A stretch of 24,425 nucleotides of DNA, from positions 1-24,425 of IMG/VR virus record IMGVR_UViG_3300010354_000632; one strand, 5' to 3'. Within the stretch, counting starts at the first letter, position 1. Every line of letters starts with the position of its first letter. Positions 3,385-22,229 of the stretch are shown one piece after another. The position numbers and the translations under genes are program-made. Source of the DNA: a virus. The notes beneath the pieces were generated by a model. That model had not been told where the DNA came from and ran no database searches. It saw nothing but the letters and a program-made list of their open reading frames with translations.

Positions 3385-3620
3385 TGCTGGGTAAACCACT
3401 TGAATTCTACGTAAAGTGGTCAGCTACCTTGATCATTATGATCGCTGTTTCCATGTTAGCGGGAGAATGGTTTTATCCCTACAGTATCATGCTACAATTT
3501 TTTGGCAACTGCTTATGGATTTGGGCTGGTGTGATATGGCGAGAAAAAACCATAATATTCACTAATGCATTTTGCAATCTAATCATACTGACAGTTTTAT
3601 CTATTAAATATATTCTATGA
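3384..3620 (+). CDS. Small integral membrane protein, 78 aa
   Basis: It starts in a TAATG overlap with the previous stop. The sequence is strongly hydrophobic with three probable transmembrane helices: residues ~10-28 (SATLIIMIAVSMLAG), ~32-52 (YSIMLQFFGNCLWIWAGVIW) and ~58-77 (FTNAFCNLIILTVLSIKYIL). A positively charged WREK loop lies between helices 2 and 3. Small proteins of this kind occur in T4-like phage genomes, and no function is established to my knowledge. It is coupled to the downstream gene by an ATGA overlap. It is not an obvious holin: it lacks the usual charged C-terminal tail and is not next to a complete endolysin. Confidence 0.75.
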   Translation: MLGKPLEFYVKWSATLIIMIAVSMLAGEWFYPYSIMLQFFGNCLWIWAGVIWREKTIIFTNAFCNLIILTVLSIKYIL

Positions 3621-4417
3621 AACAGGTTCTAATGTGTCAGCCTAAACACTTTGATGTGATATATGATATCAATCCATGGATGACTAACAATCAAAACTTT
3701 GTAGATAAAGATCATGCCATGGATCAATGGAACATGCTGTATGCAATGATTCGAAGTTGTGCAGCAGTTCGATTAATAGATCCAGACTGGATCTGTCCTG
3801 ACATGGTGTTTACTGCTAATGCTGGTTTCCATTTTGGCAAACGGAATGTTATTCTCAGTAACTTTAGATACGAACAAAGACGGTTCGAAGAAGAAAGATT
3901 CGCTCATTGGTTTCAAACCAACGATTATAAAATTCACTACGTATCAAATAGTTTCGAAGGACAGGGAGATCTATTAGAAGACAGCGACGGAAATCTATGG
4001 CTAGGTACTGGCTTTAGGACTAGTATACAGGCAGTTGAAGAAATAGAAAATATTCTAGAATGTTACATTCGTCCGCTGAATCTAGTGGATCCTTTTTGTT
4101 ACCATTTGGACACTTGTTTTTGTCCTTTACCCAATGGAGAACTACTATGGTATCCAGGAGCATTTGATCTCGATAGTCAGAATGTCATAAGAGATCATTT
4201 TGATACTACTGTGGATGTCTGCGAAGAAGATGCTAGACTTTTCGCCTGTAATAGTGTATGCTTATACAATAATGTATTCACACCAGTGTGCAGTGATCTT
4301 GTTGGCATTATGTTAAAAAAACTAGGATATGATCATAGAATGTTTGACCTAAGTGAATTTATCAAGGCAGGAGGTGCCGCTAAATGTTTAGTAATGGATA
4401 TCGATGAGCTACGTTGA
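3617..4417 (+). CDS. Amidinotransferase / dimethylarginine dimethylaminohydrolase (DDAH)-fold enzyme
   Basis: This 266-residue protein has the ordered motifs of the guanidine-modifying superfamily. MVFTANAGF (~63-71) and FEGQGD (113-118, Glu114 and Asp118) form the substrate pocket. HLDTCFCPL places the catalytic His at 163, and GGAAKC places the nucleophilic Cys at 257 near the C-terminus. These enzymes form a thiouronium intermediate at Cys and act as DDAH, arginine deiminase or amidinotransferase. The length agrees with DDAH. The substrate cannot be read from the sequence: arginine or methylarginine catabolism, transfer of an amidino group, or action on a modified nucleobase are all possible. 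It is coupled to the membrane-protein gene upstream and overlaps the DNA polymerase start by 14 bases, so it is co-expressed with replication genes. Confidence 0.85.
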   Translation: MKQVLMCQPKHFDVIYDINPWMTNNQNFVDKDHAMDQWNMLYAMIRSCAAVRLIDPDWICPDMVFTANAGFHFGKRNVILSNFRYEQRRFEEERFAHWFQTNDYKIHYVSNSFEGQGDLLEDSDGNLWLGTGFRTSIQAVEEIENILECYIRPLNLVDPFCYHLDTCFCPLPNGELLWYPGAFDLDSQNVIRDHFDTTVDVCEEDARLFACNSVCLYNNVFTPVCSDLVGIMLKKLGYDHRMFDLSEFIKAGGAAKCLVMDIDELR

Positions 4418-8187: not shown

Positions 8188-8415
8188 ATGGATAATGAAG
8201 AAGTTGTTAAAAGTCTCAAACGCATGGAAAGTCTACTAGAAGCTATAGATTGGAAACTATGGACTTTTCACCAAAAATTTATGGTTCAGACAAAATCGGA
8301 GTCAGTGGCATCTAACAACGATGTTGAGCTGGATAGCTTAATGTCAAAAGACACAGGCTCTGAGGCTAAAACAAAACTATCAGACAAATATCCCAGTGTT
8401 GAAAAATGGAGCTGA
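8188..8415 (+). CDS. Small phage protein with IDWKLW motif, copy 2
   Basis: The start ATG 8188 is chosen because AAAGGAGAA lies just upstream, giving 75 residues. An earlier in-frame ATG at 8131 lies inside the previous gene without a ribosome-binding site. The N-terminal helix VVKSLKRMESLLEAIDWKLW shares the RME/REL-x(n)-IDWKLW pattern with the preceding protein. The C-terminal 45 residues are polar and Ser/Asp/Lys-rich (VELDSLMSKDTGSEAKTKL), probably disordered. So the order helix-then-tail is the reverse of copy 1. There are no enzyme motifs. It is possibly a protein-interaction peptide, such as a coiled-coil adaptor. Confidence 0.7.
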   Translation: MDNEEVVKSLKRMESLLEAIDWKLWTFHQKFMVQTKSESVASNNDVELDSLMSKDTGSEAKTKLSDKYPSVEKWS

Positions 8416-8416
8416 T

Positions 8417-8791
8417 ATGAAAAAAATGATTTGGGTTACTTTTCAGAAAGAAGGTATTCACAAATATCCAGCAGCTCTAACAGACCCTAATCTAGCAACA
8501 GGAGGTGAGGATGATGTTTCGTTCTTGGGCTACCCGCATAGGCATATTTTTCATTTTCGTATTAGCATTGAAGTATTTCACGACGACCGCGATGTGGAAT
8601 TCATCCAATTCAAACGATTTTGTGAGCGTCTCCTGCACGAGGGGGTAGTTCAACATAACTTTAAGAGCTGCGAAATGATTGCCGATGACCTATATCTACA
8701 GATCACGCTACGATATCCCGGTAGAGAAATCTGGATTGAAGTCAGTGAAGATGGTGAAAATGGCTGTCATATTCAATATGGGAAAACATAA
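8417..8791 (+). CDS. QueD / 6-pyruvoyl-tetrahydropterin synthase-like protein (possibly inactive)
   Basis: ATG 8417 gives 124 residues, the size of QueD (about 120). The layout follows the T-fold of PTPS/QueD. FQKEGIHKYP (His15) corresponds to the F..AAHRLP strand and PHRHIFHFRISIEV (His41, His43) to the HGHSF zinc motif and its strand. DVEFIQFKRF matches the xxDFxxLK helix, SCEMIADDLYLQI matches the PTSExLAxWIW helix, and IEVSEDGENGCHIQY (Glu111) matches the final VxETxxxGxxY strand. The three zinc His and the terminal Glu can therefore be placed. The catalytic Cys between the His and HxH motifs and the Asp-His pair (LDHxxLN) cannot. It may be a divergent carboxy-tetrahydropterin synthase or a binding protein. 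Presence of FolE and QueE in the window supports the link. The alignment was made by eye. Confidence 0.5.
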   Translation: MKKMIWVTFQKEGIHKYPAALTDPNLATGGEDDVSFLGYPHRHIFHFRISIEVFHDDRDVEFIQFKRFCERLLHEGVVQHNFKSCEMIADDLYLQITLRYPGREIWIEVSEDGENGCHIQYGKT

Positions 8792-9159
8792 TGAGAACAA
8801 TGAACCAATATCAAAACCAAGTCAGTCGAGCAATGATTCATATCAACGACATCAAATACGACTTACTTAAAATTTCTGAAATCTATGATGGTATTCTTCA
8901 AGAAGGTCTTGGACACATGCCTGCAGATATGTTTCAGTCCTATCTCAGTGACCTTCGAGAGCAGGAATGGATACATAACTATGAGATCAATGAAATAACT
9001 CTGAAAGAACAGAGCTATACCTACGATGTCAGTGTGCAGATTACTCAGGATCGTACTCCTAAGAAATTAAAGATTCATGTGGGATTGTATAAAAGTCCAT
9101 GGCCGGAAGTGGCTCTTGCCAAAATGAAATATACTGGCAGCGGCTATGTCATTAAGTAA
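8791..9159 (+). CDS. Uncharacterised phage protein, 122 aa
   Basis: It begins in a TAATG overlap with the QueD-like gene. Residues 1-65 look helical (QVSRAMIHINDIKYDLLKIS, then MFQSYLSDLREQEWIHNYEI). Residues 65-122 alternate hydrophobic and polar as in a beta sheet (QSYTYDVSVQITQDRT, then KLKIHVGLYKSPWPE). No motif, signal peptide or membrane helix is visible. Its end overlaps the start of the DpdA-like gene by 14 bases, so it heads or belongs to that coupled operon. I do not recognise the family. Confidence 0.75.
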   Translation: MRTMNQYQNQVSRAMIHINDIKYDLLKISEIYDGILQEGLGHMPADMFQSYLSDLREQEWIHNYEINEITLKEQSYTYDVSVQITQDRTPKKLKIHVGLYKSPWPEVALAKMKYTGSGYVIK

Positions 9160-10690
9160 AAAAACAAGAATCGATCTTAAAACAAGAAATCATGACTATG
9201 CAATATTCTTGCCTAGCATAAGTGGTTTTTATCAGGATCAGGTCAGTCGACAACAAAACGAACCTTATTGGATTCCCAAGGATCGTATTCCCAAGGACTT
9301 TGAAAATGAAATTGAAGGTCTAAATTTTCTCAACAAAGAACAAGGCTATTTCTATTATCCCGATGCTCTTTACAGTGCTGGACATGCTCAGTTAAACATA
9401 GATAAGAGTTCTGTGCAAGAAAGCATGATACAGAATAGAGACCGCAAGAATACTTTCATACTAGGGGACAGTGGAGGATTCCAGATCGGAAAAGGCGTAA
9501 TTAACTTTGACTGGAAACGTTTTTGGGAAAAGCAAGGAGATGCCGGCTATGTAGGTACAGCAGATAAAACCCGTATGGCCATACTTAACTGGTTGGAATT
9601 TACCGCTGACTACAGCATGGTATTAGATATTCCCACATGGGCTGCTGCTCCAATCAATCAAGAACGAACTGGACTCAAAGACTTCAGAGACTGCTTAGAT
9701 GGCACACTGTTTAACAATGATTTCTTTTTGAAACATCGTCAAGGTAAGACCAAGTTCTTAAACGTTCTACAAGGTGGTAACAATGTAGACGCTGAGATTT
9801 GGTATGAAGCAGTCAAACACTATCCCTTTGAAGGCTGGGCCTTTGGTGGTAATAACATGAAGGACGTGGATCTAATGCTGCGTCGGTTGATTAAACTGCG
9901 TGATGAAAAGCTGCTAGAACCTGGTAGAGATGTCATACACTTCCTTGGTACTAGCAAGCTGGAACTAGCAGTAATACTAACAGCCATACAGCGTAACATT
10001 AGACAGTACATTAATCCTGACATGAAAATTACCTTTGACTGTGCCAGCCCTTTCTTGGCCACTGCCTATGGACAGATCTATACTCAACATGTACACCTGA
10101 ATGATAGATTCAGTTACATCATGGACAAGGCTGTAGACAATAGACTATTATCTGGTTCTACATTGCCTTTCCCATGGTCTAGCCCCATTGGTGAACGTAT
10201 TACAATGGGCGATATCTGTTGGTATCAACCTGGACAGCTCAACAAGAATGGTAAAGAAAGTAAAACCAGTTGGGATAGCTTTAGCTATGCTATCATGATG
10301 GCCCATAATGTTTACCAACATATCGAAAGTGTACAACGAGCCAATGCTCTAACTGACACTGCTTATAAGTTAAAACAGCCAGATCCTACTAGGTGGCAAA
10401 AGCAAAAAGGCAAAAGTCTTGAGATTGACAATTGGGTTCCACGTAATGTATTATATGGTGTGGAACTTGTCAATCAAGTTTTTACCAGTCAGACTCCGTA
10501 TACTCTCTTGGATAATTGTCAAGCACTGTTGGCAGATTTGAACAGTAAAAAGACACTAAAAACCACTGCGGAAACCTGGCAGCAAAATTTCACAAAGACT
10601 GATAAAGGTAATAACAATGATGCTGAAGCAGCAGATAGTTGGGACATTGATCAAGCAGAAGAATTGTTGGAGGAATTAAGAAGTGCCTAG
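9146..10690 (+). CDS. dpdA: DpdA-like DNA guanine transglycosylase (TGT superfamily)
   Basis: The 514-residue protein carries the tRNA-guanine transglycosylase barrel signatures. ILGDSGGFQ (Asp108) forms the base-binding pocket, MVLDIPTW holds Asp161, and NVLQGG (208-211) and WAFGG are the LQGG and GG loops. HFLG lies at 265-268, and FDCASPFLAT (Asp298) is where TGTs carry the nucleophilic Asp in FDxxxPxR. The C-terminal zinc Cys cluster of queuine tRNA TGTs is not visible. That, the length and the phage context match DpdA, which exchanges guanine in DNA for preQ0 or another 7-deazaguanine. Neighbouring FolE, QueD-like and QueE could supply precursor. Residues ~470-514 form an Asn/Asp/Glu-rich tail. 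It overlaps both neighbours, indicating one operon. Modified DNA of this type resists many restriction enzymes. Confidence 0.85.
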   Translation: MSLSKKTRIDLKTRNHDYAIFLPSISGFYQDQVSRQQNEPYWIPKDRIPKDFENEIEGLNFLNKEQGYFYYPDALYSAGHAQLNIDKSSVQESMIQNRDRKNTFILGDSGGFQIGKGVINFDWKRFWEKQGDAGYVGTADKTRMAILNWLEFTADYSMVLDIPTWAAAPINQERTGLKDFRDCLDGTLFNNDFFLKHRQGKTKFLNVLQGGNNVDAEIWYEAVKHYPFEGWAFGGNNMKDVDLMLRRLIKLRDEKLLEPGRDVIHFLGTSKLELAVILTAIQRNIRQYINPDMKITFDCASPFLATAYGQIYTQHVHLNDRFSYIMDKAVDNRLLSGSTLPFPWSSPIGERITMGDICWYQPGQLNKNGKESKTSWDSFSYAIMMAHNVYQHIESVQRANALTDTAYKLKQPDPTRWQKQKGKSLEIDNWVPRNVLYGVELVNQVFTSQTPYTLLDNCQALLADLNSKKTLKTTAETWQQNFTKTDKGNNNDAEAADSWDIDQAEELLEELRSA

Positions 10691-11525
10691 AGCAGTGGTT
10701 ATTGGTTTGGGTATGGGTGTTCAGTATGTGTCATGGTTCAAAAAGTTAGGTTATACAGTTATAACCGTTGATGCCGACGCTAGTAAAAATCCTGACCATA
10801 CTGACTTTGAATTTTTATACGACGATTGGTACAGACAAGATATCATTTATATCGGTACTCCAAACTATACACACGAGTCTATTGCTAGGCAGGTCGCCAG
10901 TCATGCACGACTATTACTGATTGAAAAACCAGGTTTTAAGAACTACACCAATTGGATGCGTTTCGTTAATGACCATCATCGAACACGAGTCATGATGGTC
11001 AAGAACAATCAGTACAGACCTGAGGTTGAATTATGGCGTGATATGGCTGAACGTAGCGATAGAGTAAACGTATGTTGGGAACGACAACAGGGTATACCCG
11101 CAAGCACATGGTTTACTAATCCAAAACAAAGTTATGGTGGAGTAAGTAGAGACCTAATGCCACACATGCTTAGTTATTATACTAACTTGACATGCTATGA
11201 TTATGGCACTAAAATACACAGTAGAAAAGAAGACTTAGTAGGAGTAGGAATTGATACTTACTGTGTCATGGAATTCGTTGCTGCTAATGATAAAAAAACT
11301 GCGTGGACACTGGTGACTAATTGGCAGACTGATGAATATGATAGTGCTTGTATAGAATTTATCATCGATGGACACAGTCATATCTATGACCTCGGTACCT
11401 TATGTCCTGCTGAACCTTATTTAGATATGATTACAACTGCGACCAATAACATCGACAACAATGATTTTTGGAATAGCCAATATGATCAAGATGTATGGAT
11501 TCATAAACAAATAGGACTGTTATGA
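10683..11525 (+). CDS. Gfo/Idh/MocA-family NAD(P)-dependent oxidoreductase
   Basis: It starts at GTG 10683 with GGAGGAATT 7 bases upstream, overlapping the dpdA stop. The 280-residue protein opens with a Rossmann strand VVIGLGMGVQY. IIYIGTPNYTHE (~54-65) and LLLIEKPGFKNY (EKP at 81-83) are the family's dinucleotide and catalytic lysine motifs. YGGVSRDLMPHML (Asp157, His161) matches the GGxxxDxxxHxxD catalytic segment. Members oxidise or reduce sugars, inositols and sugar nucleotides. It is somewhat short (family about 330-370), so the C-terminal sheet is trimmed. Being coupled to dpdA and followed by a dehydrogenase and a glycosyltransferase, it may prepare a sugar or side chain for the modified base. 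The substrate is unknown. Confidence 0.82.
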   Translation: MPRAVVIGLGMGVQYVSWFKKLGYTVITVDADASKNPDHTDFEFLYDDWYRQDIIYIGTPNYTHESIARQVASHARLLLIEKPGFKNYTNWMRFVNDHHRTRVMMVKNNQYRPEVELWRDMAERSDRVNVCWERQQGIPASTWFTNPKQSYGGVSRDLMPHMLSYYTNLTCYDYGTKIHSRKEDLVGVGIDTYCVMEFVAANDKKTAWTLVTNWQTDEYDSACIEFIIDGHSHIYDLGTLCPAEPYLDMITTATNNIDNNDFWNSQYDQDVWIHKQIGLL

Positions 11526-12442
11526 AAACAAAAATATTGGCTACACAAGGGCAGGGATATTTTTATGAAACAGAATACAACTGCCCAGAAAGATTTGATC
11601 AAGGTATCATTGTAAAAAATATAATGACTGGCGTTTGTACCAGTGACATTGCCATGATGCGGGGAAATTTCGGTCCATTGCCACTAGATATGCAGGGGCA
11701 CGAAGGTCTAGGCAAAGTTATTAGTGTTGGTAGTGATGTTAGAACTGAAGTTACAGTCGGTGATTATGTTGCTACTAGGGGTGAACCTGCTTATGCTGAT
11801 TACTATCCAGTTCGTGAAGGCGAGTTTGTGGTTGTCCCAGAAGCAAATCCACGCTACATCATTGAACCAGTGGCCTGCGGTATCAACATTGTTGAAGGTG
11901 ATATCGCTGAAATAGAAGGAAGAAGTTATGCTAACGACCATGCCAAACTGTTAATTATTGGCAGTGGATTTTTATCCTACGTAGCATATAAAACACTCAA
12001 GCTACATCAAACGGAATACCATATTGACGTAGTAGGTCGCAGTAACAGGGACATTTGGCTACAAGATAATGTTGAACTTAAAAGTTGCCCTAGTAGTGGT
12101 TATGAAATCGTCATAGTGCTAAATGACAATCATAGTTTTTTAGAACTTCCTGAACTAATTAATGACAATGGTCTAGTTATTGATGCTGTTGGTCGCAGCA
12201 TCAGTAAAAAGGAAAGCGAAAACCTATTATGGCGTGCTGTTACTACAAGTAGACCAAGTCCGCGTCGCCCATTCTTCTTAGACTGTATGGAGCAAGGGGT
12301 AGCCTGGATTAAAAGTGGTAAACTCGATATTGATAAATTTTGGTCGAGAAGTTATAATAGAACAACTGAATGGCAACATGCGTTTCAAGATGGCATGAAT
12401 AGACCACCAGGTTATAGTAGAGGATATATTGTATGGCCATAG
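11522..12442 (+). CDS. Zinc-type medium-chain alcohol dehydrogenase-like protein
   Basis: ATG 11522 overlaps the previous stop (ATGA). The 306 residues contain MTGVCTSDIAMMRG (Cys39, Asp42), MQGHEGLGKVISVGSDV (His60, Glu61), VGDYVA and IEPVACGIN (Glu115, Cys119). These are the catalytic zinc and GHE landmarks of medium-chain dehydrogenases. LLIIGSGFLSYVAYKTL (~145-160) is a Rossmann nucleotide loop. The four-Cys structural zinc lobe is absent and the overall length is shorter than usual (about 350). The nearest familiar relatives are threonine/sorbitol or glucose dehydrogenase-type enzymes. It likely acts with the preceding MocA-type enzyme on one pathway intermediate. The substrate is not deducible. 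Confidence 0.8.
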   Translation: MKTKILATQGQGYFYETEYNCPERFDQGIIVKNIMTGVCTSDIAMMRGNFGPLPLDMQGHEGLGKVISVGSDVRTEVTVGDYVATRGEPAYADYYPVREGEFVVVPEANPRYIIEPVACGINIVEGDIAEIEGRSYANDHAKLLIIGSGFLSYVAYKTLKLHQTEYHIDVVGRSNRDIWLQDNVELKSCPSSGYEIVIVLNDNHSFLELPELINDNGLVIDAVGRSISKKESENLLWRAVTTSRPSPRRPFFLDCMEQGVAWIKSGKLDIDKFWSRSYNRTTEWQHAFQDGMNRPPGYSRGYIVWP

Positions 12443-12936
12443 ACACAGAAGGTAGACAGCAGGTAGATTACTTTATTGGTACGGAAGTTGAACATACACC
12501 AATGAAAGGTGAACGCACACTGTTTGTAGTTGGCATAAAGCCTGTAGACGAAATTGTCAGTCGAGTCGACAATCTACGTCATATATACCTAGGTACCAGC
12601 CAATGCTTCAACCCTGTAGGTCTAGACGACTGGCGTGCCTGGAGTAAGATGATCAATGATCTACTAGACCTTGATTATTGGGTTACCCTTGACTTTGATG
12701 TAAAGTACGCCAATGAAATTCATGAAATGGCATTTACAGAAAGTGCAAGATTCATTCCCATGATCAGTGTTAAACTTCCCTACATTAAGTTGTACAACTA
12801 TAACGCTGTATTAAAGATTGATGACACTACTTGGGGTGATTCTAACCCTGGAGTATGGTGCCATTACCTACATGATCTTATGGACCGTCGTGTCTATACG
12901 GATTGGAAAGACTATGTTGGAGACACTCCTCTATGA
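12433..12936 (+). CDS. Unknown protein in the dpdA cassette, 167 aa, Asp/Trp/His-rich
   Basis: ATG 12433 overlaps the dehydrogenase end by 10 bases, with AGAGGA upstream. The protein appears alpha/beta: YFIGTEVEHTPMKGERTLFV, then NLRHIYLGTSQCFNP, then LLDLDYWVTLDFDVKYANEI, then RFIPMISVKLPYIKLYNYNA, and finally GVWCHYLHDLMDRR. Regular beta strands followed by helices suggest a small TIM-like or Rossmann-like enzyme. Conserved-looking candidates for catalysis include Glu/His in TEVEHT, the LDFD pair and the C-terminal WCHYLHD. I recognise no family. Its position in a tightly coupled set of enzymes argues that it is an enzyme or subunit of the same modification pathway. Confidence 0.8.
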   Translation: MAIDTEGRQQVDYFIGTEVEHTPMKGERTLFVVGIKPVDEIVSRVDNLRHIYLGTSQCFNPVGLDDWRAWSKMINDLLDLDYWVTLDFDVKYANEIHEMAFTESARFIPMISVKLPYIKLYNYNAVLKIDDTTWGDSNPGVWCHYLHDLMDRRVYTDWKDYVGDTPL

Positions 12937-14039
12937 GTCGAATATTTTTAGTTGACTTAGAAAGCGTTGAAACACGCTACACTTCACAATGGAAGAAACA
13001 TGTACCCGAAATTCTTAAAAGACAAGGACATAATGTTCACGTCATCTCTGGTCCTGAGGATATTCCTAGTGCCACTACTCCTGGTGCTTTTCTTAATTTT
13101 GGCGGCACCAATATATACAAGTCTAGTCAGGTCGAACAGTTTAGCAGGCTTTTTTGTGAGGGAGCCGTTAAACCTGGCAACCATTTTGTTTTTACTGATG
13201 CTTGGCACCCAGGCATCATAAACTTAAAATACATGAGTGAGCTGTTAAAGACACCAGTAAAGATTCATGCACTATGGCATGCTGGTAGTTATGATCCCCA
13301 TGACTTTTTAGGTCGTCTAATCGGAGATGATCCTTGGGTTAGACATGCAGAAAAAGCATTCTTCCACGCCGTTGACTATAATTACTTTGCCACAGACTTT
13401 CATATTAAAATGTTCATGCAAAATCTTCTCAATGACAACCATGTTTTAGAAAATCCATGGTTCGAGGAAGACCTTGAAGAAGTTCTTAATGGCAAGTTTG
13501 ATAAAATTGTTCGTACAGGATGGCCTATGGAATATATGCCACAGACGCTACAGCCTTATATGAATATGGTCAAGCGTGACCTAATTTTATTCCCACATCG
13601 CATAGCACCAGAGAAGCAGGTTGAAATTTTTAGAGATCTTAAAGAACATCTGCCACAATATGAATTTGTGGTCTGTCAGGATCATGCCTTGACTAAAAAT
13701 GAATATCATAATCTACTAGGAGAATCCAAGATAGTATTCAGTGCTAATCTACAAGAAACTCTAGGTATCAGTTGCTATGAAGGTGCTTTGGTAGATAGTA
13801 TTCCAATGGTGCCAGACAGACTGAGCTATAGTGAAATGTACTACGAAGGTTTTAAGTATCCAAGTAATTGGACCGAAAATTGGGAAAGCTATCAAAGACA
13901 TAGACAAGAACTCTGTCATCATATCATAGTCACTATGACGCATTATGAAAAACGAATACCTCAGCTGAAAAAACAGACCAAAGATCTCGGAGAAGTATTT
14001 TTTAGTGCAGATTCTTTACTTAGTAATTTAAATGTATAA
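12933..14039 (+). CDS. GT-B fold glycosyltransferase
   Basis: ATG 12933 (ATGA overlap with the previous stop) gives 368 residues. The N-terminal half has alternating strands and helices (SRIFLVDLESVETRY, then HNVHVISGPEDIP, then AFLNFGGTNIY). The C-terminal half has the family 4-type donor-binding layout. LILFPHRIAPEKQVEIFRDL corresponds to the 'GRlxxeKg' strand, and YEFVVCQDH and LLGESKIVFSANLQETLGIS precede the ETxGxxxxEA-type motif, present here as ETLGISCYEGAL. VPDRLSYSEMY follows. It should transfer a sugar from a nucleotide sugar. The acceptor is unknown: a modified DNA base is attractive given dpdA nearby, but a protein or cell-surface glycan is possible. There is no signal peptide or membrane helix, so it is cytoplasmic. 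Confidence 0.8.
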   Translation: MSRIFLVDLESVETRYTSQWKKHVPEILKRQGHNVHVISGPEDIPSATTPGAFLNFGGTNIYKSSQVEQFSRLFCEGAVKPGNHFVFTDAWHPGIINLKYMSELLKTPVKIHALWHAGSYDPHDFLGRLIGDDPWVRHAEKAFFHAVDYNYFATDFHIKMFMQNLLNDNHVLENPWFEEDLEEVLNGKFDKIVRTGWPMEYMPQTLQPYMNMVKRDLILFPHRIAPEKQVEIFRDLKEHLPQYEFVVCQDHALTKNEYHNLLGESKIVFSANLQETLGISCYEGALVDSIPMVPDRLSYSEMYYEGFKYPSNWTENWESYQRHRQELCHHIIVTMTHYEKRIPQLKKQTKDLGEVFFSADSLLSNLNV

Positions 14040-14922
14040 AATACCTTTACGTTATAATAATTTTTGGCAGGACACTGGAACCGGAGTCAACTATAAGATT
14101 GACCTTAAAGGCTGCAATCGTCGGCCAGGAACTTACCTAGACGAAGTCTGTGCCAATGCCGAACTAATTAGAAGCATGACCAATGATCCAATACATATCA
14201 TGTACAGCGGAGGAATTGACAGTGAATTTATGCTGCGTGCTTTTATGAAATTGGGTATCAATGTGCGACCTGTATTTATAAGATTGATGCCTGACTACAA
14301 TGATTATGACTATCGATTTGTAATGGAACTTAACAAGAGTCGTAACATTCAAATAAAGATATATGACATCAACTTCGACGATTTCGTACATTCTGGAAAG
14401 TTTGCTGAAATTGCTGAGAAACTTGATTGTCATGTTCATCAATATCCGGCATTATTTCATACTGCACTTCAGCTTGATGGAGTTGTACTAATCGGAGACT
14501 ATGAACCACATTTCGTTGTTCACGATAAGGTATGGAGATTTGATGAATACGAAAGCCAATCTTGTCTCAATAGATTTTATAAGGTTTATGGGGTTGATGG
14601 TACTCCAGCTTTTTTAAATTACACACCCGAGACACTGCTCTCTTTCATGAATGAAGAAGTTATCATTGACCTAATTCAAGGAAAGTATGATAAAATTTTT
14701 GGTTCTAATGCTGTCAAGCCTAAAATTTATCACAAGTATTTTGATCTTCAGCAAAGAGTAAAAAAAGACGGTTATGAAAAAATTAGAGAATCCGAAATTT
14801 ATCAACATCCTGATATTCAAAACTTTAAAAAATTTAGAACCAGCTACACATTACCCGGAAACGGAATCTATAGATTAGACCATGTTAAAATAAGAGAAAT
14901 CTTAGAAAAGGAAATAAAATGA
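14032..14922 (+). CDS. PP-loop ATPase (asparagine synthase / QueC-like fold)
   Basis: The 296-residue protein has IHIMYSGGIDSEFMLRAF (SGGIDS at 59-64), the pyrophosphate-binding PP-loop of N-type ATP pyrophosphatases such as asparagine synthase, QueC, NadE and sugar amidotransferases. VRPVFIRLMPDYNDYD follows as the second strand with a loop, and then a strand-helix pattern consistent with the HUP fold. The QueC-specific zinc cluster (C-x8-C-x2-C-x2-C near the C-terminus) is not visible, so I do not call it QueC. Such enzymes adenylate a carboxylate or carbonyl and then amidate or thiolate it. It overlaps the glycosyltransferase stop and the next gene start, so it ends the coupled cassette behind dpdA. 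It may amidate a carboxy-deazaguanine or a sugar. Confidence 0.8.
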   Translation: MYKIPLRYNNFWQDTGTGVNYKIDLKGCNRRPGTYLDEVCANAELIRSMTNDPIHIMYSGGIDSEFMLRAFMKLGINVRPVFIRLMPDYNDYDYRFVMELNKSRNIQIKIYDINFDDFVHSGKFAEIAEKLDCHVHQYPALFHTALQLDGVVLIGDYEPHFVVHDKVWRFDEYESQSCLNRFYKVYGVDGTPAFLNYTPETLLSFMNEEVIIDLIQGKYDKIFGSNAVKPKIYHKYFDLQQRVKKDGYEKIRESEIYQHPDIQNFKKFRTSYTLPGNGIYRLDHVKIREILEKEIK

Positions 14923-15257
14923 TTCGAATGCAATATACAGGACACCCGCCGGTGGGTTATCAGATTGATCGCAGCTATAATCTACCACCTATTACAGGTG
15001 CAGTTCAATGGAATGGCGTAAACAAGTGTCTTGAAGTCAGTAACGGTAGCAGTTGGCAAAGAATTGATAACACCGTTGAGTTTCATAACAGCATCGACAT
15101 TCAAGCCATGTATAACTGGATAGAAGAACAAAAACGTAAGCAGTCTGAAGAACAAGAACTACGCAGTAAATATCCTGCACTAGATGAAGCTTACAAGCAT
15201 CTTGAATTGATTAAGACACTTGTAAAAGATCACACAGAAAACAAAACAACAGTATAA
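14919..15257 (+). CDS. Uncharacterised phage protein with beta N-terminus and coiled C-terminus
   Basis: It starts in an ATGA overlap with the PP-loop gene and has 112 residues. The first half, IDRSYNLPPITGAVQWNGVN followed by KCLEVSNGSSWQRID, has the look of a short beta-hairpin module seen in tail-associated phage proteins. The second half is a strongly charged helix (WIEEQKRKQSEEQELRSKYP, then EAYKHLELIKTLVKDH), likely a coiled coil. No catalytic residues are apparent. I recall similar proteins in aquatic T4-like phages without known function. It is the last gene before an intergenic leader with a late-type TATAAATA box. Confidence 0.75.
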   Translation: MIRMQYTGHPPVGYQIDRSYNLPPITGAVQWNGVNKCLEVSNGSSWQRIDNTVEFHNSIDIQAMYNWIEEQKRKQSEEQELRSKYPALDEAYKHLELIKTLVKDHTENKTTV

Positions 15258-15260
15258 ATA
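15253..15260 (+). promoter_or_regulatory. T4-late-type promoter box TATAAATA upstream of folE
   Basis: TATAAATA is an exact match to the T4 late -10 consensus. It overlaps the TAA stop of the preceding gene and lies 62 bases upstream of the folE ATG. A small inverted repeat, GTTAC-ACAAAG-GTAAC (15266-15281), follows in the leader. A chance match is possible because the octamer spans the stop codon, and late expression of folE would be unexpected for a precursor enzyme. Confidence 0.35.
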
Positions 15261-15321
15261 GATACGTTACACAAAGGTAACAACATTCAATCTCAATATC
15301 CGTGTAAGGAAGGATTCAAAA

Positions 15322-16005
15322 ATGTCATATAACAAAACAAAAACCGATCCCGAACTGGGTCGACAGGTTCATGAGTACCTAGTAAAAATGGGTGTGGAAA
15401 CACCTACTAACCCAAACCAGTATGATCGTAAAGAAAAGATTGACCATATTGAAGCACATTTTGGTCACATCATGCGTATCTTAGGATTAGATCTAACTGA
15501 TGATAGTTTGATAGAAACACCTAAACGTGTGGCCAAGATGTATGTCAACGAAATCTTTTGGGGCTTGGACTACGAAGCATTTCCTAAATGTACCACAGTA
15601 GATAACAAAATGAAGTATGATGAAATGGTTATTGAAAGAAACGTCAATGTTCAAAGCAATTGTGAGCATCATTTCGTAGTCATCGACGGCGTGGCCACTG
15701 TGGCATACATACCTAAAAACAAAGTTCTAGGACTAAGTAAGATTAACCGCATAGTAGAATATTTTAGCAAACGACCACAGATTCAAGAAAGACTCACAGA
15801 ACAGATCTTTCACGCACTAAGTTTTATTCTTGACACAGATAATGTAGCAGTGGTCATTGATGCTCAACATTACTGTGTTAAAAGTCGCGGTGTTGAAGAT
15901 GTTGGTTCAAGCACTGTGACCAGTAAACTAGGTGGTTGTTTTAAAACTGAACCTGCTGTTCGAGCAGAGTTTATGAACATTGTCAATAACTGTAAGAGAA
16001 CATGA
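15322..16005 (+). CDS. folE: GTP cyclohydrolase I
   Basis: The 227 residues match FolE (E. coli 222). VNVQSNCEHHFVVIDG holds the zinc Cys and the catalytic/zinc His pair, and KVLGLSKINRIVEYFSKRPQ and IQERLTEQI form the substrate helix region. AVVIDAQHYCVKSRGVEDVG holds the third zinc ligand Cys and the HxC segment, and STVTSKLGGCF is the family's usual end. It opens GTP to 7,8-dihydroneopterin triphosphate, the first step of both folate and 7-deazaguanine synthesis. In dpdA-bearing phages FolE normally feeds base modification. ATG 15322 follows AAGGAAGGA. It is the first gene of a new unit after a 64-base gap. The stop overlaps the next ATG. Confidence 0.95.
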   Translation: MSYNKTKTDPELGRQVHEYLVKMGVETPTNPNQYDRKEKIDHIEAHFGHIMRILGLDLTDDSLIETPKRVAKMYVNEIFWGLDYEAFPKCTTVDNKMKYDEMVIERNVNVQSNCEHHFVVIDGVATVAYIPKNKVLGLSKINRIVEYFSKRPQIQERLTEQIFHALSFILDTDNVAVVIDAQHYCVKSRGVEDVGSSTVTSKLGGCFKTEPAVRAEFMNIVNNCKRT

Positions 16006-16193
16006 TGAAAGATCCCGTAATAGTCAATCTAGTTGAACAACTTAAAATAAAGATATCAGAAATTAACAGTCTCATGTCTTTGCTAGATGATAATGATGTT
16101 ATAGTTCAATTGAGTGTGGGCAGAGAAACTGCAATTAAACCTAGTGCAATATCTATCGTAAGCCTGATACAGACACATGACTACCTACAATAA
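16002..16193 (+). CDS. Small uncharacterised protein, 63 aa
   Basis: It starts in the ATGATG overlapping the folE stop and ends inside the next gene. The N-terminal helix VNLVEQLKIKISEINSLMSL has heptad-like hydrophobics suggesting a coiled coil. The rest is VIVQLSVGRETAIKPSAISI and a short tail. No motif is recognised. Its tight coupling on both sides is the main evidence that it is expressed. Confidence 0.6.
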   Translation: MMKDPVIVNLVEQLKIKISEINSLMSLLDDNDVIVQLSVGRETAIKPSAISIVSLIQTHDYLQ

Positions 16194-16557
16194 ATCAATT
16201 ACATCTGTAACAGCAATTGTTGGCAGTGGTGGCAGTGGTGGCAGTGGTGGCAGTGGTGGCAGTGGTGGAGGCACAGGTCAATATAACATATCCACTGGCC
16301 TGTATCGGACTGGAAATGTCCAACAAGGAGGTTTAGTAATCAATAACTCTACTAAACCTGAAAAAATTTTTAGTATAACCACTGATGGTAGGTTCACATA
16401 CGGCACCGAAAGCGTTAAAATAGATGACCTACTTAGAACAATTAAGTTAGTAAAAAAACTAGCATTTGATGTAGCAGCGGATCCTGAACTCAGTAAAAAA
16501 TTACCTTACCTCAAAGATGCTGCCCACGATTGGGTCATAGATGACCTAAAACAATAG
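16177..16557 (+). CDS. Phage protein with Gly-Ser repeat linker, 126 aa
   Basis: ATG 16177 overlaps the preceding gene by 17 bases. The N-terminal TTYNKSITSVTAIVGSGG is followed by five GSG triplets encoded by a perfect 9-bp tandem repeat. A beta-rich segment comes next (YNISTGLYRTGNVQQGGLVI, then KIFSITTDGRFTYGTES), and then a helix (IDDLLRTIKLVKKLAFDVAA) ending in LPYLKDAAHDWVIDDL. The flexible Gly-Ser linker and beta segment resemble accessory tail or capsid proteins, but no family is recognised. Copy number of the repeat may vary between relatives. An AGGAG site for the next gene directly follows. Confidence 0.75.
   Translation: MTTYNKSITSVTAIVGSGGSGGSGGSGGSGGGTGQYNISTGLYRTGNVQQGGLVINNSTKPEKIFSITTDGRFTYGTESVKIDDLLRTIKLVKKLAFDVAADPELSKKLPYLKDAAHDWVIDDLKQ
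16222..16266 (+). repeat. 9-bp tandem repeat (GGCAGTGGT x5) within a coding region
   Basis: Five perfect copies of GGCAGTGGT encode Gly-Ser-Gly triplets, flanked by degenerate GGAGGCACAGGT. The unit is in frame, so expansion or contraction changes only linker length. It is a coding microsatellite-like tract, not a CRISPR or regulatory array. Confidence 0.9.
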
Positions 16558-16565
16558 GAGATATT

Positions 16566-16832
16566 ATGGCAACTAAAAAGAAAGCCAAGACCGAAGTCAA
16601 AGTCGATGATGTCACTAGCAGAGAAATACCTAAGAACACCAAAACACCAAAACTGACAATAGTTGCTCCCGAACAATATGAAATTGATTGGGACAAAATC
16701 GCTGCTAATGTAAAAGAGGCTGCGGAAGAATACGAACGAAAAAAACTAGTGGAAGCTGCACCATACCATCCAGGTTATGAAGGTGCAATAATCGAAACTA
16801 AACCTGTTAAGTCTAAGAAAAAGAAAAAATGA
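16566..16832 (+). CDS. Small Lys-rich uncharacterised protein, 88 aa
   Basis: ATG 16566 has an ideal AGGAGATATT site. Both ends are lysine-rich (ATKKKAKTEVKVDD and SKKKKK), with a central TIVAPEQYEIDWDKIAANVK helix and a YHPGYEGAI turn. The charge pattern suggests nucleic-acid binding or a disordered scaffold-like peptide. No family is recognised. It overlaps the phosphoribosyltransferase start by an ATGA. Confidence 0.7.
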   Translation: MATKKKAKTEVKVDDVTSREIPKNTKTPKLTIVAPEQYEIDWDKIAANVKEAAEEYERKKLVEAAPYHPGYEGAIIETKPVKSKKKKK

Positions 16833-17416
16833 ACAAGATCTATTATACATGGAAAGATTTTGACAAAGATGTTATCAATCTATCTAAACAGATAAAAACC
16901 AGTGAGTGGATACCAGATTACTTTGTGGCCATTAATAGAGGCGGACTACCTTTGGGTGTAAGTCTTAGCAATCTAATGAATATACCGTTGAAAGTTATAA
17001 CAGTTAGCTTGAGAGATCATGCATGTATTAGTGTAGACCGCAGTATTGCTGCTGATGCCTTTGGTTGGTATAATGCTCATGTTGAAGATCAATGGCTGTC
17101 ACATAATAATTATTCGTATAAGGCAGATTATAAAAAACACAGCAAAAAAATCTTAATCTGTGATGACATCAATGACAGCGGAGCAACCTTTAACTGGATC
17201 GTAGAGAATGTTCCTAAAGAAATGTTACCTGGAGATTCCAGGTGGCAAGAAGTATGGAACGACAATGTTCGGTTTGCCACACTGTGGGATAATCCTGCTA
17301 GTGAGTTTGTCAAAAAGCTCGACTACACTGTTCACAGTAAAGATCCTAGTAGCAACCCATGGATAGTATTTCCTTGGGAAGAACCAATGGCAAAAATTCC
17401 AAAACAAAAAAAGTAA
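16829..17416 (+). CDS. Type I phosphoribosyltransferase
   Basis: The 195 residues contain the PRPP-binding signature KKILICDDINDSGATFN (two Asp at 112-113, loop to 120). PDYFVAINRGGLPLGVSLSN is the usual strand-loop-helix with the PPi-binding RGG. These features place it with purine/xanthine phosphoribosyltransferases (HGPRT/XGPRT type, about 150-200 aa). It would attach ribose-5-phosphate to a free base or catalyse the reverse. The specific base is not evident. In a window with dpdA it could recycle the guanine released by base exchange, which is inference. It overlaps both neighbours and ends with a basic KIPKQKK tail. Confidence 0.82.
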   Translation: MNKIYYTWKDFDKDVINLSKQIKTSEWIPDYFVAINRGGLPLGVSLSNLMNIPLKVITVSLRDHACISVDRSIAADAFGWYNAHVEDQWLSHNNYSYKADYKKHSKKILICDDINDSGATFNWIVENVPKEMLPGDSRWQEVWNDNVRFATLWDNPASEFVKKLDYTVHSKDPSSNPWIVFPWEEPMAKIPKQKK

Positions 17417-17652
17417 TGAGTCAACTACTGCTAACTCTTAATTTTTGGGAAAGCAAGCAGTTAGAATACTGGTTGACAGACCACTATCCTGATGTTAAAA
17501 TAAGAACATTATATGATACATGGAGTCCTCCTGATTCAGAAGAATGGTATGCCCTTGAAGGATCGATTGATCAAGAGTTTGAGTGTTTGCTTAGACTCAA
17601 ATATGGTAATAAAGTTAGAGGCGGAATAAGATTTGGAAACATTCAAAGTTAG
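17416..17652 (+). CDS. Small uncharacterised protein, 78 aa
   Basis: ATG 17416 sits in a TAATG overlap with the phosphoribosyltransferase stop. The start at 17359 would lie deep in that gene. The product has a hydrophobic N-terminus (SQLLLTLNFWESKQLEYWLT), a Trp-rich middle (TLYDTWSPPDSEEWYALEGS) and a basic end. There is no recognisable motif. It overlaps the queE start by 20 bases and its end carries the ribosome-binding AGAGGCGGA used by queE. Confidence 0.65.
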   Translation: MSQLLLTLNFWESKQLEYWLTDHYPDVKIRTLYDTWSPPDSEEWYALEGSIDQEFECLLRLKYGNKVRGGIRFGNIQS

Positions 17653-18487
17653 TGAAATTTTTTATAGTGCCCAAGGTGAAGGTCGCTTTATTGGCGTACC
17701 TAGCATATTTTTTAGAACATTTGGCTGCAATTTTCAATGTGCAGGTTTTGGTTTACCACGTGGAGAAAAAACTACAGAGCCAGATGAAATTGACGTCACT
17801 AAGTATTCCAACTTTATGGAACTGCCATTGGTAAAATATGGTTGTGACAGTTATGCCAGTTGGCATCCAAATTTTAGAAAGTTTAGTCCAAGATACAGTA
17901 TACAAGAAAGCGTTGATGCCATGCTGGCTCTAACTCCTAACCATCATTGGCTGCAGGATAATGGCAACGATGTTCACCTTGTAATCACAGGCGGTGAACC
18001 TCTTCTAGGCTGGCAAAATTTGTATCCAGAACTCTTGACTCATACTGCTATGAGCGACCTACGTAACCTAACGTTTGAAACCAATGGTACTCAAATGTTG
18101 CATAAAGAATTTAAAACATTTCTTAGAGATGGTTATCGCTTACGTAAAGACAACATTACCTTTAGTGTAAGTCCTAAACTCAGTGCCAGTGGTGAAGCCT
18201 GGGAACATGCTGTCAAACCCCAAGTCATAATTGATTATCAACATGTTGGACATGTTTATCTTAAATTTGTAGTCAGTGCAGCGGAAGATTTTGACGAAGT
18301 AGACACTGCTGTTAAAGCATATAGACTGGCGGGATTTACTGGACAGGTCTATGTTATGAGTATTGGCGGCACAGACGAAAGTTATTTTGCTCATAGTAAA
18401 AACGTAGCAGACATGGCACTGGCACGTGGTTATCGTTATAGTCCTAGACTTCATGTAGATATTTGGAGCAATGGCTGGGGTAAGTAA
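17633..18487 (+). CDS. queE: QueE-like 7-carboxy-7-deazaguanine synthase (radical SAM), insertion in the Cys motif
   Basis: Translation most likely starts at TTG 17633. An in-frame TAA lies two codons upstream and an AGAGGCGGA site precedes it, giving 284 residues against about 220 for E. coli QueE. FYSAQGEGRFIGVPSIFFR is the characteristic QueE N-terminus. The cluster Cys are C32 and C36 in GCNFQC and C71 in GCDSYASW, so the usual CX3CX2C is interrupted by an insertion (C-x34-C). ITGGEPLLGW (119-126) binds SAM, LTFETNG follows, and SVSPKLSASGE and KFVVS match later QueE motifs. It converts carboxy-tetrahydropterin to carboxy-deazaguanine. With FolE and the QueD-like protein it supplies the DpdA pathway. 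The insertion may be typical of phage QueE and should not inactivate it. Confidence 0.88.
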   Translation: METFKVSEIFYSAQGEGRFIGVPSIFFRTFGCNFQCAGFGLPRGEKTTEPDEIDVTKYSNFMELPLVKYGCDSYASWHPNFRKFSPRYSIQESVDAMLALTPNHHWLQDNGNDVHLVITGGEPLLGWQNLYPELLTHTAMSDLRNLTFETNGTQMLHKEFKTFLRDGYRLRKDNITFSVSPKLSASGEAWEHAVKPQVIIDYQHVGHVYLKFVVSAAEDFDEVDTAVKAYRLAGFTGQVYVMSIGGTDESYFAHSKNVADMALARGYRYSPRLHVDIWSNGWGK

Positions 18488-21230: not shown

Positions 21231-21537
21231 ATTTATAATCAATGAACTACAGAAAAGAGTTGATCATCCATTGGAATTTTTCGCTGTATTCAAAAATCCC
21301 AAAGGAACACGATTTACAACATCAGGCTACAGTATGGCCCATAAGATATGGAAAAACTATACTATAAAAATGCCTAAAGAATATTCAGTAAAAACAGGTA
21401 CTCTAATAATGCTAGACAAACGCATGTCTTGGCCTTACTACCTATCAGGTACCAAGCTAGTGCTGTTCAACGAAATGGACGCCTTTGAATTCAGTCTTTA
21501 TCAAGGTGATATTAATCTATGGGCCAACAAGGACTAA
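21202..21537 (+). CDS. Uncharacterised protein, 111 aa
   Basis: ATG 21202 inside the previous gene is preferred over a TTG at 21196. The protein starts with a basic helix (TKEQLSRFIINELQKRVDHP) followed by a beta-rich portion (EFFAVFKNPKGTRFTTSGYS, then YSVKTGTLIMLDKRMSWPYY, then GTKLVLFNEMDAFEFSLYQG). No family is recognised. The end overlaps the dioxygenase start by 19 bases, so the pair is coupled. Confidence 0.72.
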   Translation: MTLTKEQLSRFIINELQKRVDHPLEFFAVFKNPKGTRFTTSGYSMAHKIWKNYTIKMPKEYSVKTGTLIMLDKRMSWPYYLSGTKLVLFNEMDAFEFSLYQGDINLWANKD

Positions 21538-22229
21538 AAGAAATCTTTCTACGAGATGGATTCTTCGTAGCTAGGGACATTATAGATCCCAGTGTTATTC
21601 ACAGTATCAATTCAAGAGTTAGAGACCTAGTACCAAATCGCGGTCATGGCATAGACAATAAATATTGGCCGCAGGATCTAGTTCATGAATGCCCTGAATT
21701 GGCATTATGGTGGAGTCAACAATTAACTGACTGGCCACAGGTTCGAACTGTTGGCAACATACTAATCAACACTGTGGGATTTTTGTTTAAAGATCCCTGC
21801 GTTTATGTGGCAGATGTTATTACCAATACACCAAAAAACAAATATATCAAACCACACATAGACAGTCCTTATCGTTTTGAAAAATGGCATGAAAGTTTTG
21901 ATCTGTTAGGTGTACAGTGCATTGTACCTTTGTGTCAGTTTACTAGAGAGAATGGAGCGACTGGCTTATTGCCGCAGAGTCATATAAAAAATTGGATAGT
22001 AAGAGACAGCTATAAAGGTGTCTATAACGAAGAATTTTTAAAAAATGTTGTTCAGCCCAGTATGGATTTGGGAGATGTGCTAATTTATCATCCGAGAGTG
22101 TTGCATAGTACCATGCCCAATCATACAGACCAAGCTCGAAGGGCACTGTTAATACATATTACCAGTAGAGCTATGGCTGAACAAATGAAATTGGTAGACA
22201 ATGTGTTTACAGGTTTACCAAGTTTGTAA
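21519..22229 (+). CDS. Phytanoyl-CoA dioxygenase (PhyH)-like Fe(II)/2-oxoglutarate oxygenase
   Basis: The 236 residues have the double-stranded beta-helix iron site. KPHIDSPYRF supplies His113 and Asp115, and VLHSTMPNHTDQARRALLIH supplies the distal His196 and the 2-oxoglutarate-binding Arg207/208. RDGFFVARDIIDPSVI near the N-terminus and ENGATGLLPQSH (the 'NG.....PGSH' feature) are PhyH family traits. It hydroxylates or otherwise oxidises an unidentified substrate using O2 and 2-oxoglutarate. Phage 2-OG oxygenases are known in nucleobase and protein modification, and related proteins are frequent in aquatic phages. It overlaps the gene upstream. The region downstream holds hairpins and then a new unit. 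Confidence 0.85.
   Translation: MGQQGLKEIFLRDGFFVARDIIDPSVIHSINSRVRDLVPNRGHGIDNKYWPQDLVHECPELALWWSQQLTDWPQVRTVGNILINTVGFLFKDPCVYVADVITNTPKNKYIKPHIDSPYRFEKWHESFDLLGVQCIVPLCQFTRENGATGLLPQSHIKNWIVRDSYKGVYNEEFLKNVVQPSMDLGDVLIYHPRVLHSTMPNHTDQARRALLIHITSRAMAEQMKLVDNVFTGLPSL

Follow-up and report, generated by a model that had tools for sequence, protein, structure and literature searches.

What does a glycosyltransferase do when it is encoded behind a putative DNA-guanine transglycosylase? The question is raised by the IMG/VR virus record IMGVR_UViG_3300010354_000632, a virus fragment of 24,425 bases that was analysed in full (the window). In the window, dpdA (9146-10690) is followed by genes for a Gfo/Idh/MocA oxidoreductase (10683-11525), a zinc-type medium-chain dehydrogenase (11522-12442), a conserved 167-aa protein (12433-12936), a glycosyltransferase (12933-14039) and a PP-loop ATPase-like protein (14032-14922). 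According to the original prediction, these five genes elaborate the deazaguanine placed by DpdA. We found that the coupling between the glycosyltransferase and DpdA is near-obligate, and that the module extends beyond the five genes, over at least 8396-18487. With a probability of about two in three, this is a DNA hypermodification module, in which a deazaguanine would be inserted by DpdA and would then receive from the glycosyltransferase a sugar tailored by variable genes.

The coupling was observed in several collections. A scan of IMG/VR gave at least 600 relatives of the glycosyltransferase, and 80 loci were kept. All 53 viral glycosyltransferase loci with 6 kb of upstream sequence contain dpdA. 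Conversely, the glycosyltransferase is present in all 44 viral dpdA loci with 6 kb downstream. These come from the 80 dpdA loci that best matched a profile derived largely from glycosyltransferase loci. In INPHARED, the glycosyltransferase occurs in 15 records and DpdA in 15/15 of them, against a background of only about 83 among 50,697 records matching the DpdA queries used. dpdA was also found in 13/13 long phage or viral records. In the unrelated isolates ACP17 and X1, the glycosyltransferase adjoins DpdA, with folE and queE nearby. In Paride, it adjoins DpdA with queE nearby. In Phosso, it is located by folE and DpdA is 170 kb away, indicating that the coupling persists without synteny.

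The glycosyltransferase is also encoded at 19 loci among 84,980 bacterial species genomes. Two of these loci (L093 and L094) resemble phage contigs in metagenome bins. DpdA is located within a few kb in all 14 bacterial loci that are flanked on both sides, in Magnetospirillum, Devosia, Azospirillum, Aurantimonas, Shimia, Sulfitobacter and other hosts. A conserved small tyrosine recombinase is found in 11 bacterial loci, and a 131-aa protein, discussed below, is encoded beside the glycosyltransferase or DpdA in eight. A YhhQ/Vut_1-type transporter (PF02592, 1.1e-5, just under the cut-off) adjoins the glycosyltransferase in seven, and QueD (PF01242, 1e-22) is present in all five Magnetospirillum loci. 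The bacterial loci fit mobile islands, and they link the glycosyltransferase and DpdA independently to deazaguanine supply. The alphaproteobacterial islands among them (L095-L108) combine DpdA, the glycosyltransferase and a tyrosine recombinase with the transporter or the 131-aa protein, plus QueD in Magnetospirillum. These islands are possibly a bacterial glycosyl-deazaguanine system.

The glycosyltransferase of the window alone matches no Pfam glycosyltransferase family. Its homologue in X1 matches PF00534 at 8e-12, above the cut-off. All 15 diverse members compared, from phages and bacteria, keep the motifs E275-x7-E283 and R223-x4-K228 (window numbering) unchanged. The top PDB matches of its AlphaFold2 model (pLDDT 64) in Foldseek are BshA, PglA and glycogen synthase, with a probability of 1.0 and a TM-score of about 0.4. 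On the homologue, the motif and the Foldseek result, the enzyme is a GT4 family member with a GT-B fold. A second glycosyltransferase family takes the same slot, which follows the 131-aa gene, in 14 loci (L114, L115, L116, L121, L139, L142, L145, L146, L151, L155, L179, L184, L189 and L195), including isolate BUCT-ZZ01. This family is above the cut-offs of two Pfam glycosyltransferase models, and is 59-72% identical to the BUCT-ZZ01 member and about 23% identical to the enzyme of the window. In cyanophage BUCT-ZZ01, a second GT4 enzyme (L195:4364-5707) adjoins DpdA2. It is 32% identical to L099:12287-13483 from the DpdA-glycosyltransferase islands of Shimia and Sulfitobacter. A second sugar may be added in this phage and these islands.

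The distribution of the enzyme bears on what it modifies. Glycans are common GT4 substrates, and jumbo phages and cyanophages carry surface-sugar clusters with glycosyltransferases, nucleotidyltransferases and cupins (PMC7824862). The glycosyltransferase and the sugar enzymes could thus remodel the host surface, such as the O-antigen, against superinfection, the adjacency to dpdA being incidental. However, where the flanks suffice, no glycosyltransferase without dpdA was seen in phages or bacterial islands, and the coupling survives the loss of synteny in Phosso. In addition, what surrounds it in bacteria is an integrase and genes for deazaguanine supply, not lipopolysaccharide genes. We consider surface remodelling improbable. 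The outcome named beforehand as refuting the original prediction, regular occurrence of the set without dpdA, did not arise (dpdA in 53/53 viral and 14/14 bacterial loci), and the glycosyltransferase is not tied to surface-glycan clusters.

The composition of the module was counted over 127 viral loci holding both dpdA and the glycosyltransferase. In the window, all of its genes named here are on the plus strand. The 131-aa protein, encoded upstream of dpdA (8396-8791) and carrying HxH and SCE motifs, is a partner of dpdA and the glycosyltransferase in 127/127 loci. The 167-aa protein is found in 124, and belongs to the core of the module in an aquatic phage group. FolE (15322-16005; PF01227, 8.8e-62), the GTP cyclohydrolase I of the first deazaguanine step, is encoded in 80 loci, and QueE (17633-18487; phrog_2076, 8.2e-52), a 7-carboxy-7-deazaguanine synthase, in 61; both counts are lower bounds owing to contig ends. 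Matches of QueE to the NCBIfam QueE models go down to 3e-12, which is below the model cut-offs. A phosphoribosyltransferase (16829-17416; PF00156, 1e-13) is a frequent member, found in 63 loci.

The remaining genes are more variable. The MocA oxidoreductase and the dehydrogenase form a strict pair, each in 26 loci and every time located between dpdA and the glycosyltransferase. The former matches PF01408 at 5.1e-5, just over the cut-off (relatives 4.4e-8 and 1.8e-5), and is predicted to be an optional sugar-tailoring gene; the latter matches ADH_N (PF08240) at 4.9e-9. Other loci encode a UDP-sugar dehydrogenase (36/127; TIGR03026, 8.4e-39) or an HldE/GCT-type nucleotidyltransferase (13/127; 1e-21). 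A quick tree of DpdA from 102 loci requires at least 7 changes in MocA, at least 16 in the dehydrogenase and at least 4 in glycosyltransferase type. This suggests a conserved base module with exchangeable glycosyltransferase and sugar genes, which would vary the sugar.

These counts modify the view of the five genes as one cassette. Their open reading frames are all on the plus strand in 10683-14922, at the positions originally given. The overlaps of 4-10 bases behind dpdA are borne out by the coordinates, being 8, 4, 10, 4, 8 and 4 bases from dpdA through the five genes to the next open reading frame (14919), if the glycosyltransferase starts at the ATG at 12933. This start was preferred to the listed TTG at 12903 because of its relatives and the ATGA junction. 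The arrangement is beyond chance, since order and content recur across many contigs. A single unit is not what recurs, however. The glycosyltransferase and the 167-aa protein belong to the core, the MocA-dehydrogenase pair is optional, and the PP-loop gene is a rare accessory found in three of the 127 loci at 22-23% identity. All five genes occur together only in L022 and L072, two near-identical contigs. Of the proposed deazaguanine-elaborating cassette, the tie of the glycosyltransferase to DpdA and deazaguanine genes holds, and the single five-gene pathway does not.

Two of the five proteins were analysed further. The 167-aa protein has no sequence match in Pfam, PHROGs or PDB, and its AlphaFold2 model (pLDDT 86) matched no solved fold at E <= 0.001 in Foldseek. 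A relationship to QueD was considered, and profile comparison gave nothing. The PP-loop protein has no significant Pfam match, and neither INPHARED nor a scan of viral contigs for its pattern yielded relatives. It shows a weak PADLOC match to QueC (1.2e-4) covering only the PP-loop. An assignment as QueC was rejected: the SGGIDS motif is present, but the only cysteines are at positions 28, 40, 133 and 178, and the C-x8-CxxCxxC zinc motif is missing.

Which base does the module supply? The window is too short to judge the presence of QueC. Among the 13 long phage or viral records, none encodes QueC above the PF06508 cut-off, so that the mark of the PreQ0/dG+ phage pathway, QueC or Gat-QueC, was not found, and five encode QueD. 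In two DpdA2 phages that do have QueC, nt-1 and pf16, no glycosyltransferase was seen near dpdA. The lack of QueC in the long records suggests that the phage-made base is probably 7-carboxy-7-deazaguanine (CDG) or a derivative. One guess is that the 7-carboxylate accepts the sugar.

The 131-aa protein has no Pfam or PDB match. Its motifs resemble those of QueD/PTPS by eye, and this assignment was discarded, with no Pfam match and an hhalign probability of 0.2 against phage QueD. Members of the family are located near folE in phages RHph_I1_18, phiST, Ahp1, D479 and Bakedbeans (L190-L194), in Bakedbeans as the C-terminal domain of a protein. There they mostly adjoin DpdA3-like barrels, and no QueC is annotated nearby. 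Because the family accompanies folE even where the phage has a different DpdA-like protein, it probably makes, tailors or otherwise acts on the base, and is a candidate base-tailoring enzyme. The five genes of the original prediction are there; it had overlooked this conserved gene, located before dpdA, and also that QueC is systematically missing, which changes the likely base.

The content of the module leaves the order of its steps unset. The glycosyltransferase could act on free deazaguanine or a precursor, with DpdA inserting a pre-glycosylated base. The literature on huimycin, a pyrrolopyrimidine, reportedly mentions a glycosyltransferase together with a deazaguanine-type base, a possible precedent. 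However, the base pockets of tRNA-guanine transglycosylases (TGTs) and DpdA are small, and known sugar additions to phage DNA come after replication. Glycosylation before insertion is improbable, and the base installed by DpdA is most likely the acceptor.

DpdA itself is divergent. The protein of the window alone has no significant Pfam match. Its relatives keep the DSGGFQ, LQG, GWAxGG, HFLG and FDCASP motifs in the alignment, and the barrel motifs of the TGT superfamily, which include the nucleophile Asp and DSGG(F/L)Q, are conserved (D108-SGGFQ, Q209-G, G230, H265-L267-G268 and D298). Searched against all PDB sequences, its profile matched only TGTs, each weakly (E 0.27-1). The group was aligned to the DpdA2 group, which includes Vibrio phage nt-1, with an hhalign probability of 80.5 and an E-value of 1.3e-5 over 181 columns. 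Profile homology thus suggests that the protein is a DpdA2 family member, so distant that a separate subfamily is possible. Vibrio phage 2.275.O (L198:7908-12476) has another tailoring set: behind a related DpdA come a weak match to an amidoligase, QueF and a transporter of the YhhQ type.

The relationship of DpdA to TGTs, together with the vertebrate enzymes QTMAN and QTGAL that glycosylate queuosine in tRNA (PMC12313893), raises the possibility that the whole module targets tRNA in a queuosine-like glycosylation. This is very unlikely, as the closest studied group, DpdA2 of nt-1, goes with DNA deazaguanines, the nt-1 genome carrying dPreQ0, dADG and dG+ (PMC6884629). The glycosyltransferase was also rejected as a QTMAN homologue, since neither the enzyme of the window nor its scanned relatives match the Pfam QTMAN model. 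Equally remote is a parallel modification of hydroxymethylcytosine or hydroxymethyluracil, for which T4 DNA glucosylation is a precedent and some phages have a PF00303 enzyme (which could be a thymidylate synthase or a hydroxymethylase), but the glycosyltransferase is coupled to DpdA, and any PF00303 enzyme is absent from six of nine phage records, including the complete ACP17 and X1, and from two of four bacteria tested, so that a phage-made hydroxymethylpyrimidine is not the general acceptor.

The reading of the locus as a deazaguanine glycosylation module leads to the following scheme, in which all steps after DpdA are deduced from the genes. FolE and QueE, with QueD from the phage or the host, would make CDG or a derivative, which the 131-aa protein may convert. 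DpdA would swap this deazaguanine for guanine in phage DNA, and the GT4 enzyme would move a sugar from a nucleotide sugar onto the inserted base. The donor sugar would be tailored by MocA and the dehydrogenase in the window; other loci would use nucleotide-sugar dehydrogenases or nucleotidyltransferases for this. Related phages would carry different sugar ‘types’, and the modification would presumably protect against restriction. On a broader scale, we see an even chance that glycosylated 7-deazaguanine in DNA is common to phages and bacterial mobile islands, with exchangeable glycosyltransferases and sugar genes providing an antigen-like variety of sugars.

Several points weigh against this scheme. 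The sugar-linked deazaguanine is a predicted product. Many of the viral loci are close relatives, so that the counts overstate independence; the independent evidence for the coupling comes from about six phage lineages and the bacteria. The structural model of the glycosyltransferase is of modest confidence, and the usual acceptors in its family are small molecules or glycans. Several of the bacterial hosts do have QueC. Finally, if the 131-aa protein were a CDG decarboxylase, a possibility reportedly raised by the work of Cui et al. 2023, no handle would be left at C7.

To our knowledge, all known glycosylated DNA bases are pyrimidines. If the scheme is correct, the product would be the first purine-type base in DNA known to us to carry a sugar. 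Glycosyltransferases annotated as ‘hypothetical’ in PA5oct-like phages would gain a likely role, and the conserved 131-aa and 167-aa proteins are named as candidate steps. At least 600 viral contigs from the environment carry the module, as do cultured phages, among them Paride, which is reportedly noted for killing dormant Pseudomonas. A search of a limited set of papers, Cui et al. 2023 not among them, found no report linking a glycosyltransferase to deazaguanine DNA modification. A survey of jumbo phages mentions the PA5oct deazaguanine system and makes no link to a glycosyltransferase (PMC7824862), and the words glyco- and sugar are absent from the text of Hutinet et al. 2019 (PMC6884629). 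What appears to be new is a variant of 7-deazaguanine DNA modification with a dpdA-coupled glycosyltransferase.

Several other genes are found in the window. A PhyH-type dioxygenase (21519-22229; PF05721, 1.9e-15) is also encoded in the closest relative, L006. A dimethylarginine dimethylaminohydrolase/arginine deiminase-like protein (3617-4417; PF19420, 3.7e-12) is an unusual neighbour for a DNA polymerase. A ferritin/Dps-like protein is encoded at 2386-2823 (PF00210, 1.1e-16).

Among known systems, the DpdA2 system of nt-1 resembles the module in FolE/QueE-type base synthesis, a TGT-like DpdA and the DpdA alignment (PMC6884629). It differs in having QueC and no glycosyltransferase near dpdA2, whereas QueC is missing here and the glycosyltransferase and the 131-aa protein are near-obligate. 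QTMAN and QTGAL also act after a transglycosylase on 7-deazaguanine in a nucleic acid (PMC12313893). Unlike the module glycosyltransferase, to which no sequence match was found, they act on tRNA and require the cyclopentenediol of queuosine. In T4, as is predicted here, a phage glycosyltransferase places a sugar on a modified base, 5-hydroxymethylcytosine. However, the T4 pyrimidine enters via the nucleotide pool, whereas the deazaguanine would enter via transglycosylation, and many of our phages have no PF00303 enzyme. BshA and PglA share the GT-B fold and the E-x7-E and R-x4-K motifs, but their known acceptors are malate and lipid-linked sugars, and their TM-score to the enzyme of the window is only about 0.4. 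Phages with DpdA3, reportedly described by Cui et al. in 2023, are said to contain dCDG or dDG and to encode FolE, QueD and QueE without QueC, with no glycosyltransferase reported. The module resembles them in combining FolE, QueD and QueE without QueC, and members of its 131-aa family are found beside DpdA3-like barrels as well.

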